NCBI RefSeq assembly: GCF_002968295.1
Contig: NZ_CP134399.1
Span: forward strand, 5,580,001 to 5,644,000
DNA length: 64,000 bases
Origin: Mycobacterium sp. ITM-2016-00317
Lineage (GTDB): Bacteria > Actinomycetota > Actinomycetes > Mycobacteriales > Mycobacteriaceae
Reading direction: 5' to 3'
Of the stretch, positions 57,876 through 62,185 are shown one piece after another (position 1 is the stretch's first letter; each line of letters opens with the position of its first letter). Below the pieces are notes generated by a model that did not search any database, was not told where the DNA came from, and was given only the letters and a program-made list of their open reading frames with translations. The position numbers and the translations under genes were made by a program.

Positions 57876-58904
57876 CTATGCTGCCGAATTCTCCCCGGCG
57901 CTCTCAACCGCACGCGCGGGTTCGGGGCGCTCGGGTGCCTCGGATTCCTCGGCGCCGGCCGCCACCATGACCCACCGCTGGGCGGGTCTCTCCACCGGTT
58001 GCTGCTCGAAACCGAGGAACACCTTGAGCGCGGCGAGCAGCGCCGCGGCCGCGAACAGGTACGCCACGATCGTGATCACGGTGTTGTCGGCGATGCCCTG
58101 CGGGTCCGCCCTGAAGCTGGTCGCGAACGCGAACACCGACACCACGGTGCTGGCCACCCACAGCAGCCACCACACCAGGACCGGTCGCTGCAACCAGCGC
58201 TGTCTGCCCTCGATCCCGGCGAGCTCGATCACGAACACCGGCGCCCACAGCAGGTTGGCGAACGGGATCAGGCAACCCAGCCGCAGCGCCCACCCGGGTC
58301 TCGGCTCGGTCTGACCGGCGTGCGCGAACGCCGCCGCCCGGCGCGCGATCAGCCAGTTCATCAGCACGACGACGCTGGCCACCGTCATGAACGCTGCCGC
58401 GACGCTCACCGCGACACCGCCCCAGGTGGCCGCCCCCGCGACCCACGGGTTCAGCAGCACCGAACGGTTGATGATCAGCAGCACGTAACGCACCAGGTGG
58501 ACGAACGCCGCGGCCCCCAGCGTGGCGACGGTCACCACCAGCGTCATCTGCACCGCGGTCGGGGACGGTCCCTTGCGCTGGGGAGCGTGTTCGACGGGGC
58601 TTTCGAAGTGTTCGACCAGACCCCATCGCGGGATGCTCTGATACCGCGGGGTCGGACCGAGCTCACGGCGTGCGCGGCGGGGATGGGGAGGCGCGCCCGG
58701 CCGTACCGCCACCCAGCGGTAGCCGGACGGCAGCGGCTGGCCCTGACGCTTCGGGTCCGGGTGCGGGCCGTGGCCAGGACCCCAACCCTGCCCGGAAGCA
58801 TGGCCCGACGGTGCGAGCAGCGTGCCGCGACAGCGCGGGCACCACACCCGCTGCCGGTCGCGCACGTTCCACCGCGTTCCGCACTGGGAACACACTTGGA
58901 TCAT
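57876..58904 (-). CDS. DUF4328 membrane protein with N-terminal zinc ribbon (Rv3843c homologue)
   Basis: A 342-residue protein. The first 25 residues form a zinc ribbon (CSQCGTRW...VWCPRCRG, two CxxC pairs), then a Gly/Pro/His-rich linker, and a DUF4328 domain of about five helices with FAHAGQTEPRPGWALRLGCLIPFANLLWAPVFVIELAGIEG. Function unknown. TACTCT lies six bases before its ATG, so it probably heads a leaderless mRNA that also carries glpQ1. Confidence 0.85.
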   Translation of the reverse strand: MIQVCSQCGTRWNVRDRQRVWCPRCRGTLLAPSGHASGQGWGPGHGPHPDPKRQGQPLPSGYRWVAVRPGAPPHPRRARRELGPTPRYQSIPRWGLVEHFESPVEHAPQRKGPSPTAVQMTLVVTVATLGAAAFVHLVRYVLLIINRSVLLNPWVAGAATWGGVAVSVAAAFMTVASVVVLMNWLIARRAAAFAHAGQTEPRPGWALRLGCLIPFANLLWAPVFVIELAGIEGRQRWLQRPVLVWWLLWVASTVVSVFAFATSFRADPQGIADNTVITIVAYLFAAAALLAALKVFLGFEQQPVERPAQRWVMVAAGAEESEAPERPEPARAVESAGENSAA

Positions 58905-58910
58905 CGGACC

Positions 58911-58916
58911 AGAGTA
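58911..58916 (-). promoter_or_regulatory. Predicted -10 element (TACTCT) of the DUF4328-glpQ1 operon
   Basis: On the minus strand TACTCT, six bases, then ATG (58904). Confidence 0.45.
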
Positions 58917-58918
58917 AG

Positions 58919-59260
58919 TCAGACCGTGCCTGCGTCTCCGCTGTCGGTGACGACTCGGCGTCCGGCTCCCGCCCAGGCCAGCATCCCGCCGGCGACGTTG
59001 ATCGGGTCGTAGCCGTTGCGCGCCAGGTACTGGGCGACGCGCTGCGAGCGGCCGCCGGCATGGCAGACCACGAACAACTTCGCCTGGGTGTCGATCTCCG
59101 CCAGTCGCGCGGGGACGTCACCCATCGGGATGTGTTGAGCGCCCGGCGCGTGACCGCGCTGCCACTCGTCGTCCTCGCGCACGTCCAGCAGGACCACGGC
59201 CTCGTCGAATTCGACCGGAACGTCGCCGATCGCCGCCTGCGGCACCTCGGTGTCACCCAT
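58919..59260 (-). CDS. Rhodanese-like domain protein
   Basis: A 113-residue single rhodanese domain: LLDVREDDEWQRGHAPGAQHIPMGDVPARL, the active-site loop FVVCHAGGRSQRVAQYL with catalytic Cys, and NVAGGMLAWAGAGRRVV. It should carry persulfide sulfur for an unknown acceptor. The start MGDTEVP fits family length, though the frame is open further up without similarity. It is 14 bp upstream of the DUF4328 gene, with that gene's -10 element between them. Confidence 0.85.
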   Translation of the reverse strand: MGDTEVPQAAIGDVPVEFDEAVVLLDVREDDEWQRGHAPGAQHIPMGDVPARLAEIDTQAKLFVVCHAGGRSQRVAQYLARNGYDPINVAGGMLAWAGAGRRVVTDSGDAGTV

Positions 59261-59634
59261 GACCTCATGCTGGCATGTGCCTGCCCCGGCTGGCCAGAAC
59301 GGGTCGTCAGCAATACCTCCGCGGGCCACCGCCATCCACAGTTTCCACACCTTCATCCACAGGCCGGCGCAGCCCCGACCGGGCAATGAGCCGCCGGTGG
59401 GGGCCGCGCCTGGGGATAACTTTTCCGCGGGCGCTCAGATAGTCAACAGCTTCCGTTTCGGCTGAGCGAATATTTTGTCGCGCTAAGCGATCCGGCGGGT
59501 GCGGCCCGGCTACGCTCTCGATTTCTCAGGGGAGACACCACGCGTTATGATCGCCGTCACACGCGCGGATGTGTGATCGATCTCACTGAAGCGGTGGCCG
59601 GGGAGGTACAGAGCGTGCGGGTGAGGAGCTTCTG
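59261..59634. other. Intergenic region between the rhodanese and small membrane protein genes (374 bp)
   Basis: Relatively AT-rich for this window around 59400-59480 (CGAATATTTTGTCGCGC). I see no conserved protein or structural RNA. It holds one CRP-like palindrome near its right end and presumably the promoters of both flanking genes. Confidence 0.6.
59572..59587 (+). promoter_or_regulatory. CRP-like site TGTGA-TCGATC-TCACT
   Basis: A near-perfect match to the mycobacterial CRP (Rv3676) consensus (C/T)GTGA-N6-TCAC(G/A), 47 bp upstream of the small membrane protein ATG. cAMP-linked control of that gene is inferred. Confidence 0.55.
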
Positions 59635-59793
59635 ATGGCGTCGTCTTCGATGGGCTCGGGGTCGGCATTCCAGCCTTCTGAATGGCAGACCTCCGCGCGC
59701 GCCTACACCCGCAGCCAGCTCATGGCGTGCCTGCGCGCCGGGCTCATCGCGCTGGTGCTGCTCGGCATCCTCGCGTTGATCGTGCTGTACTGA
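59635..59793 (+). CDS. Small single-pass membrane protein (52 residues)
   Basis: Encodes MASSSMGSGSAFQPSEWQT, a short basic part, then one strongly hydrophobic helix (AGLIALVLLGILALIVLY) reaching the C-terminus. A GAGGAG site lies seven bases before the ATG, and a CRP-like palindrome lies upstream. No known domain. It converges on sodX with only 13 bp between stops. The combination of ribosome site and clean helix makes it a likely real gene of unknown function. Confidence 0.6.
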   Translation: MASSSMGSGSAFQPSEWQTSARAYTRSQLMACLRAGLIALVLLGILALIVLY

Positions 59794-59806
59794 CCGGCCC
59801 CTGCGC

Positions 59807-60148
59807 TCAGCCCGCGCAACGTGCCGGCAGCCGCCAGAACACGCGATAGCTCCCGGCTGCGGACACCGGGCCGAAGTCGTGCGAATCGCTGGCCCCGGCC
59901 GCCCGCGGATTGTCCGATCGGGCCTCGAACACCGTGCCGTAGACCTCGCCCACGCGTTTGACGAGCCAGCGCGTCGACTTGTTCGGGTGGGGGAACACCC
60001 GGATCTGGCCGGCACGGGGCCTACCGTCGCGCCAGGCCAACAGCATGTCGCCGGGTTCCAGCGTCGGCAGCATCGAGTCCTCGACCACCACGAAACGGCG
60101 TACCGGCCAGCCGAACCCGGACGCTCGTGGCCCATGGCTTCCCCGCAT
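59807..60148 (-). CDS. sodX: Nickel-superoxide-dismutase maturation protease SodX
   Basis: A 113-residue S26 signal-peptidase-like protein that removes the SodN leader so that the new N-terminal His can bind nickel. Catalytic Ser25 lies in VVEDSMLPTLEPGDMLL and Lys64 in WLVKRVGEVY. The C-terminal SDNPRAAGASDSHDFGPVS corresponds to the usual signal-peptidase end box. There is no membrane helix of the LepB kind, which agrees with a cytosolic role. It diverges from sodN across 22 bp, and each gene's -35 region must lie inside the other gene. Confidence 0.88.
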   Translation of the reverse strand: MRGSHGPRASGFGWPVRRFVVVEDSMLPTLEPGDMLLAWRDGRPRAGQIRVFPHPNKSTRWLVKRVGEVYGTVFEARSDNPRAAGASDSHDFGPVSAAGSYRVFWRLPARCAG

Positions 60149-60154
60149 CGGCTA

Positions 60155-60160
60155 AGGGTA
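60155..60160 (-). promoter_or_regulatory. Predicted -10 element (TACCCT) of sodX
   Basis: On the minus strand TACCCT, six bases, then the sodX ATG (60148). It shares bases 60159-60160 with the opposing sodN hexamer. Confidence 0.5.
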
Positions 60161-60164
60161 AGTT
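60159..60164 (+). promoter_or_regulatory. Predicted -10 element (TAAGTT) of sodN
   Basis: TAAGTT ends six bases before the sodN ATG at 60171, implying a leaderless mRNA. It overlaps the sodX hexamer by two bases, so polymerase should not open both at once. Confidence 0.5.
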
Positions 60165-60170
60165 AGGGCC

Positions 60171-60593
60171 ATGCTGCATCGACTGTTTGCCAACGCCACC
60201 CCCGCCCACGCCCACTGCGACCTTTTCTGCGGCGTCTACGACCCCGCGCAGGCCAAGATCGAGGCGCTGTCCTGCCTCAAGACGATCCAGAAGTACCACG
60301 ACTCCGATGACGAGCACTTCAAGACGCGCGCCATCATCATCAAGGAGCGCCAGGCCGAAGAGGTCAAGCATCACCTGATGGTGCTGTGGGCCGATTTCTT
60401 CACCAAGGACCACTTCGAGCAGTTCCCGAACCTGCATCAGCTGTTCTGGGAAGGCGTCAAGGGCGCCGGTGACGTCAAGAAGTCGCTCGACGCCGCCGTG
60501 GCCGAGAAGCTGCTCAAGACCATCGACGAGATCTCCGACATCTTCTGGCAGACCGACAAGGGCAAGCAGATGGGCGTCTACCCTCCCGCCTGA
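60171..60593 (+). CDS. sodN: Nickel-containing superoxide dismutase SodN, variant nickel hook
   Basis: Dismutates superoxide with a Ni centre held by the first residues of the mature protein. The 140-residue precursor has a 14-residue leader (MLHRLFANATPAHA) followed by HCDLFCGVYDPAQA. His15, Cys16 and Cys20 are the metal ligands (mature His1, Cys2, Cys6). Mature position 5 is Phe, while the usual hook is HCxxPCGxY. The four-helix part follows (IEALSCLKTIQKYHDSDDEHFKTRAIIIKERQAEEVKHHLMVLWADFF) with FWQTDKGKQ at the end. It occupies the place where H37Rv has sodA (Rv3846). A strong terminator follows. Confidence 0.93.
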   Translation: MLHRLFANATPAHAHCDLFCGVYDPAQAKIEALSCLKTIQKYHDSDDEHFKTRAIIIKERQAEEVKHHLMVLWADFFTKDHFEQFPNLHQLFWEGVKGAGDVKKSLDAAVAEKLLKTIDEISDIFWQTDKGKQMGVYPPA

Positions 60594-60608
60594 TCCCGTT
60601 CCCTTACC

Positions 60609-60646
60609 AAAGCCGGCTCGGTCTTCGACCGAGCCGGCTTTGTTTT
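60609..60646 (+). terminator. Strong Rho-independent terminator of sodN
   Basis: Perfect 15-bp arms AAAGCCGGCTCGGTC (60609-60623) and GACCGAGCCGGCTTT (60627-60641) with a three-base loop, then TGTTTT. It begins 16 bases after the stop. One of the clearest canonical terminators in the window. Confidence 0.92.
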
Positions 60647-60752
60647 GCCCGCTGGCAGTCGGGTCCACTTGTCTGCCAGTGCGTTTCTCCAGCATTCTGT
60701 CCGGATCGACCCAGAGGCGTGTCGGGCATTGGTACGGATGCCAGGAGGCGGA

Positions 60753-61286
60753 ATGGAATTCGGGGCCGGACGGGCGATCGAGATCGCCCCTTTTCACTCT
60801 CGTGGGTCTCTCAAGGGATTCGTCGTGTCCGGGCGCTGGCCGGACTCCACCAAGGAGTGGGCACAACTACTCATGGTGGCCGTGCGCGTCGCGTCGATGC
60901 CGGGGCTGCTGTCCACCACGACGATCTTCGGCGTCCGCGAGGAGCTGCCGGAAGAGCCGGAGCCGGGCACGGTAGGTCTGGTGCTGGCCGAGGGCACCGT
61001 GGTCGGGGACGCGGCGGTGCCGCCGGGCCATTTCGCCGACCGCCAGCCGCCGGCGCTGATGATGCTGCATCCGCCGTCGGAGACCACGCCGTCGCTACCG
61101 GAGTGCGCCGGGGCCGCGTCCGGGTGTGTGCTCTTGCCCGGGCTGCCGCATCTCGGGCTGGAACACCGGGCGGCGTGGGTCGAGGCGGAATCCGACGGCA
61201 CGGTGACCTCGATGGTCAGCCGGGTCGGGGTGGATCCGATCAGCCACCCCGACACCGCCATTCTCGCGATGCTGCTGGCGGCGTAG
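60753..61286 (+). CDS. Conserved mycobacterial protein (Rv3847 homologue)
   Basis: A 177-residue soluble protein without a recognised domain. The start MEFGAGRAIEIAPF is set by AGGAGG at 60743-60748, four bases before the ATG; the frame is open for 36 codons more upstream but that stretch overlaps the AGGAGG. The length equals that of Rv3847, which follows the superoxide dismutase gene in M. tuberculosis, and position supports the assignment. Segments such as VSGRWPDSTKEWAQLLMVAVRVASMPGLLSTTTIFGV suggest an alpha/beta fold. Function unknown. Confidence 0.75.
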   Translation: MEFGAGRAIEIAPFHSRGSLKGFVVSGRWPDSTKEWAQLLMVAVRVASMPGLLSTTTIFGVREELPEEPEPGTVGLVLAEGTVVGDAAVPPGHFADRQPPALMMLHPPSETTPSLPECAGAASGCVLLPGLPHLGLEHRAAWVEAESDGTVTSMVSRVGVDPISHPDTAILAMLLAA

Positions 61287-61309
61287 CGCCACGCCGCGCC
61301 TATTTTTTG
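61278..61309 (+). terminator. Probable terminator at the end of the Rv3847-like gene
   Basis: Arms GCGGCGT (61278-61284) and ACGCCGC (61291-61297) with a six-base loop, followed by GCCTATTTTTT. The left arm overlaps the stop codon. Confidence 0.6.
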
Positions 61310-61789
61310 CCAGGACATTGACAGGTTCTGGGCGGGACGCCGGGCCCCTGACTGCCATTGGCTACTGACACATTCTCGGGTGCCTGCCGTGGCCGTTATC
61401 ACCGGCGTTTGCCGCGTCACATGCCGCGAAGCCGGTTCCCATGCCTGGTGGCGAGCAGGGCGCACATACCCTCCAGCAAACCTGCGCGATTGAGGCTTCG
61501 CGGGGGGAGATAGTTGCCGGTGACACATAGGGCAACTTATGTGACGGCAGGGGCCCAGAAGACGCGCGTATGCTTGCTACGTAGCCGTTATTATTTGCTT
61601 AACCGCACCGTACTATGGCAGTGCGAGGTGCGAATACTGACGCCGTTCACGACAGCAGCGGCGCTCCGGGCTGCGGACCGAGTTGACTATGACGAGGTTT
61701 GCACTTGGTTGTGGCCAGATGTATGTCTACGATAATCAGCAAATACGCCGCCCGATGAACCCGCTCGCCTGTATGTGGAGGTCCTTCCG
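61287..61789. other. Long AT-richer region upstream of espR (503 bp)
   Basis: No convincing gene. The stretch around 61570-61740 (for example TTATTATTTGCTTAACC and TACTATGG at 61609) is poorer in G+C than anything nearby. A 73-codon open frame here has no ribosome site or codon bias. The length and composition suggest a regulatory region with a distal espR promoter or binding sites for nucleoid proteins such as EspR or Lsr2; this is inference. Confidence 0.5.
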
Positions 61790-62185
61790 ATGAGCAATAC
61801 GTTTGCCGCTCGCCTCAACCGCTTGTTCGACACGGTCTACCCGCCCGGACGAGGCCCGCACACCTCGGCGGAGGTGATCGCAGCACTCAAGGCCGAGGGC
61901 GTCACCATGTCCGCGCCGTACCTCTCGCAGCTGCGTTCTGGCAACCGCACCAACCCGTCGGTCGCCACGATGGCCGCGCTTGCCAACTTCTTCCGTATCA
62001 AGCCCGCGTACTTCACCGACGACGAGTACTACGAGAAGCTCGACAAGGAGCTCACCCTGCTCGCCGGAATGCGTGACGAAGGGGTTCGCCGCATCGCGGC
62101 CAGGACCGTCGGCCTGTCGGCAGAAGCCAAGCAGGACATCGTGCAGAAAGTCGACGAACTGCGTCGGCGCGAGAATCTCGACTGA
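61790..62185 (+). CDS. espR: Nucleoid-associated regulator EspR
   Basis: A 131-residue XRE-type DNA-binding protein, nearly full-length match to EspR (Rv3849). In M. tuberculosis EspR controls espACD and many cell-wall genes and bridges distant DNA sites. The N-terminal helix-turn-helix (TSAEVIAALKAEGVTMSAPYLSQLRSGNRTNPSVATMAALANFFRIKPAYF) is followed by a C-terminal dimerisation helix pair (LTLLAGMRDEGVRRIAARTVGLSAEAKQDIVQKVDELRRRE). The ATG at 61790 has GGAGG eight bases upstream. Confidence 0.95.
   Translation: MSNTFAARLNRLFDTVYPPGRGPHTSAEVIAALKAEGVTMSAPYLSQLRSGNRTNPSVATMAALANFFRIKPAYFTDDEYYEKLDKELTLLAGMRDEGVRRIAARTVGLSAEAKQDIVQKVDELRRRENLD

Follow-up and report, generated by a model that had tools for sequence, protein, structure and literature searches.

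A conserved sequence between the divergent sodX-like and sodN genes of mycobacteria as a probable bidirectional promoter core overlapped by a SigF-type promoter

In the 64-kb stretch of Mycobacterium DNA analyzed here (the window), genes for a nickel superoxide dismutase (sodN) and a SodX-like maturation protease diverge from a short gap, and the sequence AGGGTARGTT (60155-60164) within that gap is probably the core of a two-way promoter in the 23-bp class, with a SigF-type sodN promoter superimposed on it. The initial annotation of this DNA had taken two hexamers of the gap, one on each strand, as -10 elements of leaderless genes; comparative sequence analysis supports the view that both hexamers are under selection in such a role. 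The features of the locus are:

59807..60148, - strand: sodX-like Ni-SOD maturation protease gene, an ORF of 113 aa (PF10502, 26.5 bits, cut-off 22.9)
60171..60593, + strand: sodN, Ni superoxide dismutase, 140 aa (PF09055, TIGR02753)
60149..60170: sodX-sodN gap, 22 bp, CGGCTAAGGGTAAGTTAGGGCC
60146-60148, - strand: sodX start codon (CAT on the + strand)
60171-60173, + strand: sodN ATG
60148, - strand: predicted sodX transcription start, placed by -10 spacing, 23 bp from the sodN start
60171, + strand: predicted sodN transcription start, placed by -10 spacing
60155-60160, - strand: TACCCT, putative -10 of sodX, six bases before the ATG; its T-7 is the complement of A60155
60159-60164, + strand: TAAGTT, TANNNT-type (SigA-like) putative -10 of sodN, six bases before the ATG
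60156..60160, + strand: GGGTA, putative SigF-type -10 of sodN, 10 nt before the ATG
60137..60140, + strand: GCTT, weak putative SigF-type -35 in sodX codons 3-4, giving GCTT-N15-GGGTA

The protein encoded by sodN matches Sod_Ni (PF09055) at 132 bits and the curated sodN model TIGR02753 at 132.2 bits, above the cut-off of 90 for a Ni superoxide dismutase, and has the same amino acid sequence as its counterpart in Mycolicibacterium vaccae NBRC 14118 (L133). Behind a propeptide it carries HCDLFC at codons 15-20, an N-terminal HCxxxC motif that we take to be the Ni-SOD hook; the mature enzyme would begin at HCDLFCG, codon 15. The sodX protein scored 42.9 bits (E 5e-11) with TIGR02754, short of the curated cut-off of 63.25, and is therefore regarded as a divergent SodX-like protein; it is named for its position and this sub-threshold match and is not classed as a member of the family. 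The sodX of another locus, L045, is 88% identical to that of the window.

The initial annotation was right as to the coordinates, the 22-bp gap and the placing of TAAGTT (+) and TACCCT (-) six bases from their respective ATGs, and also in noting that the hexamers have two bases in common. These are T60159-A60160, so that the same two base pairs would serve as T-12/A-11 of both promoters. The hexamers were called face-to-face; they in fact lie back-to-back, reading outward from overlapping upstream (-12/-11) ends. Overlooked at that stage was the putative GGGTA/GGTT SigF-type promoter of sodN; its -10 and the sodX hexamer have five bases in common, not two. Both genes have the layout expected of leaderless genes, with TANNNT 6-8 nt before an ATG or GTG and, by eye, no Shine-Dalgarno sequence. 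A leaderless-type neighbor gene likewise has TANNNT 6 nt before its start in 29 of the 34 loci in which it was located by motif, and its -35 is not conserved. A consensus promoter scan of the region for TTGACA/TATAAT-like pairs gave no match at this site.

This arrangement of hexamers is not a product of chance. The motif CAY-N6-ANNNTANNNT-N6-RTG occurs once in the 64-kb window versus never in 100 dinucleotide shuffles, and at seven places in the whole single-contig 6.06-Mb genome versus two for the reversed control; as the motif is its own reverse complement, each genomic place matches on both strands. Three of the seven places, sodX-sodN included, lie between long divergent ORFs. The other two (L370, genome 657361; L371, genome 702375) are apparent divergent pairs with the same back-to-back, shared-TA, six-base-spaced geometry, namely a TetR-like with a permease-like gene and a gene for a 125-aa protein with an amidohydrolase-like gene (named by eye, without annotation), and long stop-free frames also cross both sites. 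The geometry is therefore probably not special to Ni-SOD; what sets this locus apart is how deeply the geometry is conserved, that it overlaps a SigF-type site and that the two genes are functionally paired.

Stronger evidence comes from conservation across the genus. A Sod_Ni match is present in 136 of 396 same-genus genomes, including that of the window, and 131 were taken, leaving out G008, G041, G268 and G279 (gene fragments only) and G367. After seven loci with a different, Shine-Dalgarno-led sodN reading HCDLPC (L002-L008) were set aside, 124 loci remained, including the window. The sodN hexamer was located by a short list of TANNTT forms within 30 nt before the ATG, and the alignment was anchored there; the datum is therefore the fixed distance of 6-7 nt to the sodN ATG in 124/124 loci (6 nt in 90, 7 nt in 34), not the invariance of bases. 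The forms found were TAAGTT (91), TAGGTT (29), TAAATT (2), TAGATT (1) and TAGTTT (1). Read on the + strand, the sodX hexamer is AGGGTA in 116 loci, GGGGTA in four and something else in four, and a sodX ATG or GTG (CAT or CAC on the + strand) lies 6 nt from it in 111 loci and 7 nt in six, with none there in seven.

Of the 117 loci with a sodX start at that distance (the compact loci), 78 have a 22-bp gap and 39 a 23-bp gap; the spacers flanking the core are variable. T-12, A-11, T-8 and T-7 are each present in 117/117, partly owing to the anchoring pattern. Outside that pattern, A-16 and G-15 are found in all 117 loci, G-13 in 116, G-14 and G-9 in 114 each, and position -10 is A in 90 and G in 27. 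The TA is common to both hexamers and T-7 closes that of sodN, while A-16 corresponds to T-7 of the sodX hexamer and is the sodX-specific base. Thus ANNNTANNNT, the shared -10 form, is present in the window and in 117/117 compact loci, the + hexamer being the alignment anchor and A-16 independent of it. A poorly conserved gap in relatives, which the initial annotation had said would speak against its proposal, was not what the 124 Mycobacterium loci revealed: the gap is conserved.

A smaller number of loci have the two halves drawn apart. In L010, L061, L098, L120 and L121, sodX starts further upstream, and in all of these except L098 a TANNNT stands 6-8 nt before the sodX GTG, 49-51 bp from sodN. 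Position -16 is G in four of the five and A in one, so that the sodX-specific base is lost in four, and GGGTA and TANNTT on the sodN side are kept in all five. L010, L061, L120 and L121 have two cores about 27 bp apart, a symmetrical ANNNTANNNT at sodX and GGGTA/TANNTT at sodN, and this double-core form is a possible intermediate between leadered and compact arrangements. In L030, from a 73% complete assembly, the two genes are separated by roughly 1 kb of intervening DNA, with TACCCT-6-ATG kept at sodX and TAAGTT at sodN. In L107 and L139, both taken to be the M. austroafricanum DSM 44191 record, an insertion with a DDE transposase (PF13701, 115 bits) occupies the gap inside the shared promoter sequence and cuts sodX off from TACCCT. 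Support in the sodN tree is low (12 of 122 inner branches starred), and the tree requires no more than a single origin of a moved sodX; the separations of sodX from the core may therefore not be independent, and an independent-pairs test of A-16 loss versus sodX displacement, with one supported pair only, had no power.

The core also recurs in distant actinobacteria. Among 22 non-mycobacterial relatives (Ilumatobacter, Acidimicrobiia and other Actinomycetota metagenome assemblies), eight (L190, L191, L192, L194, L196, L197, L198 and L199), several of them close to one another, carry a divergent sodX whose start is preceded at 7-8 nt by TANNNT, together with an opposite-strand TANNNT sharing the TA, i.e. 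the ANNNTANNNT core. In these eight, sodX is of the leaderless type and sodN, judged by eye, follows a leader with a purine-rich Shine-Dalgarno sequence; four read AGTGTA instead of AGGGTA. Three more of the 22 have the sodX motif without the shared-TA core, and in 11 no sodX was found by the strict motif, a looser one flagging two of these. The same strict search found no divergent sodX either in 30 Mycobacteriales loci (L213-L242) or in the four set-aside mycobacterial loci, out of seven, to which it was applied, a result that is little informative given that it misses L061 and L120, where sodX is present, and L204 and L208, which the looser motif flags. The shared core next to a Shine-Dalgarno-led sodN in distant relatives suggests an ancient core and a loss of the sodN leader in mycobacteria.

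On the sodN side, the conserved GGGTA with a GGTT-like -35 in sodX codons 3-5 matches a SigF promoter, which points to use by SigF. The M. smegmatis SigF consensus is GTTT-N14-19-GGGTA with variants that include GGTT, GTTG, GTTC, GTGT and GCTT, and many SigF sites are 8-11 nt from a start codon (PMC4694148). Exact GGGTA is present in 114/117 compact loci, and GGTT-N16-GGGTA, in sodX codons 4-5, in 95/117. Any of the six published -35 tetramers is found at N14-18 in 107/117 loci; when the upstream bases were shuffled 500 times, the mean count was 11 and the highest 21, a control that ignores coding constraint and kinship. The candidate -35 overlaps the sodX coding sequence, and the window's GCTT-N15 is a weaker form than GGTT-N16. 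G[G/A/C]TT is missing from its usual position in 13 of the 114 GGGTA loci, among them the six with a 7-nt sodX spacer. In the shifted loci the GTTTT found at the -35 runs into the hexamer opposite the sodX core and is therefore not a clean SigF footprint.

Across this genome, GTTT-N15/16-GGGTA occurs 48 times versus nine for the reversed control, and 10 of the 30 sites examined have an ORF start codon 9-12 nt downstream, like sodN. Only two of these 30 have TT at the place of the TT of the sodN hexamer, and TANNTT is therefore taken as a separate constraint. Three SigBFG-family sigma genes scored above cut-off in the genome. The upstream regions of chaB and treS, taken as SigF positive controls, yielded no consistent site and were uninformative.

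The pattern might instead reflect a back-to-back pair of ordinary SigA-type TANNNT promoters in which SigF plays no part. GGG would then be conserved both as the middle of the sodX hexamer and as an extended -10 for sodN, and GGTT would be kept since sodX needs Asn4-His5. We consider this rather unlikely, with several observations in its favor. GGG fits a SigF -10 and the sodX hexamer interior alike, and L115 retains both TANNNT hexamers with neither GGGTA nor GGTT. Interior -10 bases are conserved at the leaderless-type neighbor gene too, where position -8 is C in 29/29. Half of the eight distant relatives with the TA core lack AGGGTA, as noted above, and in the six loci with a 7-nt spacer GGTT moves along with the sodX frame (GGTT-N17). 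Against these stand the retention of GGG in all five shifted loci, where it no longer serves sodX, and the agreement of spacing and -35 form with the published SigF consensus (PMC4694148). The SodX protein also argues for a constraint on DNA: Asn4 (104/111) and His/Gln5 (108/111) form a conservation island (3.9 and 3.4 bits, with residues 2, 3 and 6 at about 2.1), whereas non-compact sodX N-termini have Asn4 in 0/12 and His/Gln5 in 1/12, as expected if the DNA and not the protein were constrained there.

It is very unlikely that the site drives sodN alone, with sodX served from elsewhere by a longer leader from inside sodN and its hexamer fortuitous. The sodX frame does remain in L107, where the insertion element parts it from the hexamer, but sodX starts at a fixed 6-7 nt in 117 loci with A-16 in every one, eight distant relatives have TANNNT 7-8 nt before sodX, and by eye no Shine-Dalgarno-like sequence precedes sodX in the window. 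That AGGGTARGTT is a regulator's operator and not a pair of promoter hexamers is highly improbable and was rejected: a near-invariant 10-mer is equally typical of operators, but this one occurs only twice in the 6.06-Mb genome (reversed control, three), its other copy lies inside a 1588-aa polyketide-synthase-like frame, its symmetry is that of ANNNTANNNT, and four of the five loci with a displaced sodX start lack A-16.

The chromosomal site is also occupied by different superoxide dismutase types. In all 20 sodN-less genomes tested, a Fe/Mn SOD adjoins a gene that we take to be Rv3847-like (loci compared: L281-L307, L009-L132), and the same gene adjoins sodN in 93 of the 123 sodN loci scored, the window itself excluded (window region 57876-62185). 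With sodX-sodN at the usual Fe/Mn SOD site, it looks as if one SOD type had taken the place of the other in situ. The sole Fe/Mn SOD match of the window's genome is elsewhere (L032); among ten further sodN-bearing genomes tested, four have a Fe/Mn SOD elsewhere, three have none, and three have it at the usual site with sodN elsewhere. As G054, G082 and G085 (L093, L095 and L046), sodN-bearing and about 100% complete, have no Fe/Mn SOD (PF02777) match, Ni-SOD may be the main cytoplasmic SOD there. Among the seven mycobacterial genomes with the second, HCDLPC type of sodN, the two tested (G087 and G314) keep a Fe/Mn SOD at the usual locus. In L019 (G009), the reading frame of the predicted sodN ATG is not that of the mature Ni-hook region, through a sequencing error, decay or another start.

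Under our preferred reading of a bidirectional core with a superimposed SigF-type site, the gap would be a composite promoter with three parts: a sodX TANNNT, a sodN TANNTT and a SigF promoter of sodN. TACCCT on the - strand would be the -10 of a leaderless sodX mRNA and TARGTT on the + strand the TANNNT -10 of a leaderless sodN mRNA, both using the same T:A base pairs as -12/-11, and the SigF promoter would combine a GGGTA -10 with a GGTT-like -35 within sodX codons 3-5. In a basal state both genes would be expressed at a low level with little interference between the orientations. Active SigF, in stationary phase, hypoxia or stress, would load polymerase toward sodN and so raise superoxide dismutase; were this loading strong enough, sodX, whose product would be a protease needed in catalytic amounts only, may be occluded. 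SigF is described as active in hypoxia and under stress (PMC6448022). The initial annotation had expected protease and substrate, if both promoters are used, to be made in strict alternation or by supercoil coupling; the available account of E. coli does not bear out strict alternation: the five bidirectional promoters tested had basal activity too low for polymerase competition, and substantial activation of one direction can repress the other (PMC12825309). In its fullest form, which we offer tentatively and regard as possible though doubtful, the 10-bp sequence would comprise three overlapping promoters for two sigma factors in two directions, SigF would switch polymerase from the protease to the superoxide-dismutase direction, and the SigF -35 would have fixed Asn4 and His/Gln5 of mycobacterial SodX.

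Such a promoter would place mycobacterial Ni-SOD in a probable SigF stress regulon; the regulon table of M. smegmatis includes KatA, a Mn-catalase and a starvation-induced DNA-protecting protein (PMC4694148). The sodX-sodN site is under strong evolutionary constraint, exists in natural pulled-apart variants, serves paired genes and has a likely second sigma factor acting one way only; it could be used to ask directly whether a shared promoter can be biased by an alternative sigma factor. The initial annotation knew of no such description for a Ni-SOD pair. That stands to the extent that no study of a mycobacterial Ni-SOD promoter or its expression was found among open-licence papers, searched by titles and the beginnings of abstracts; the 23-bp class itself, however, has already been described in E. 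coli (PMC12825309).

As in mycobacteria, the Ni-SOD gene of Streptomyces adjoins its cognate peptidase gene and the intergenic region is conserved, but nickel regulation there is via Nur and a small RNA from sodF, and the accessible part of that report mentions neither a shared promoter nor leaderless mRNAs (PMC3919588). Leaderless transcripts, which are reported to make up 24% of those in M. smegmatis, likewise combine a -10 of the TANNNT type with a 5' end at the start codon, as predicted for these genes, whereas here two of them would form a divergent pair with shared -10 bases (PMC6448022). The site resembles mycobacterial SigF promoters in its GGGTA -10, which in many of them is 8-11 nt from the start codon, and, as to the candidate -35, in the GTTT/GGTT form with a 14-19 nt spacer; it differs in that the candidate sodN -35 lies within the divergent coding sequence and the -10 would double as that of sodX, the window reading GCTT-N15-GGGTA (PMC4694148). 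The closest likeness in geometry is to the bidirectional promoters of E. coli described by Warman, Grainger and colleagues, which give rise to 19% of RNAs, have pseudo-symmetrical -10s on both strands and commonly start 18, 10 or 23 bp apart, the last being the distance predicted here; according to the available text, promoters with a shared -10 have come to notice only recently, and little work has gone into how they are controlled (PMC12825309). Unlike the E. coli promoters so described, sodX-sodN combines predicted leaderless mRNAs and functionally paired genes with a putative second-sigma promoter in one of the two directions (PMC12825309).
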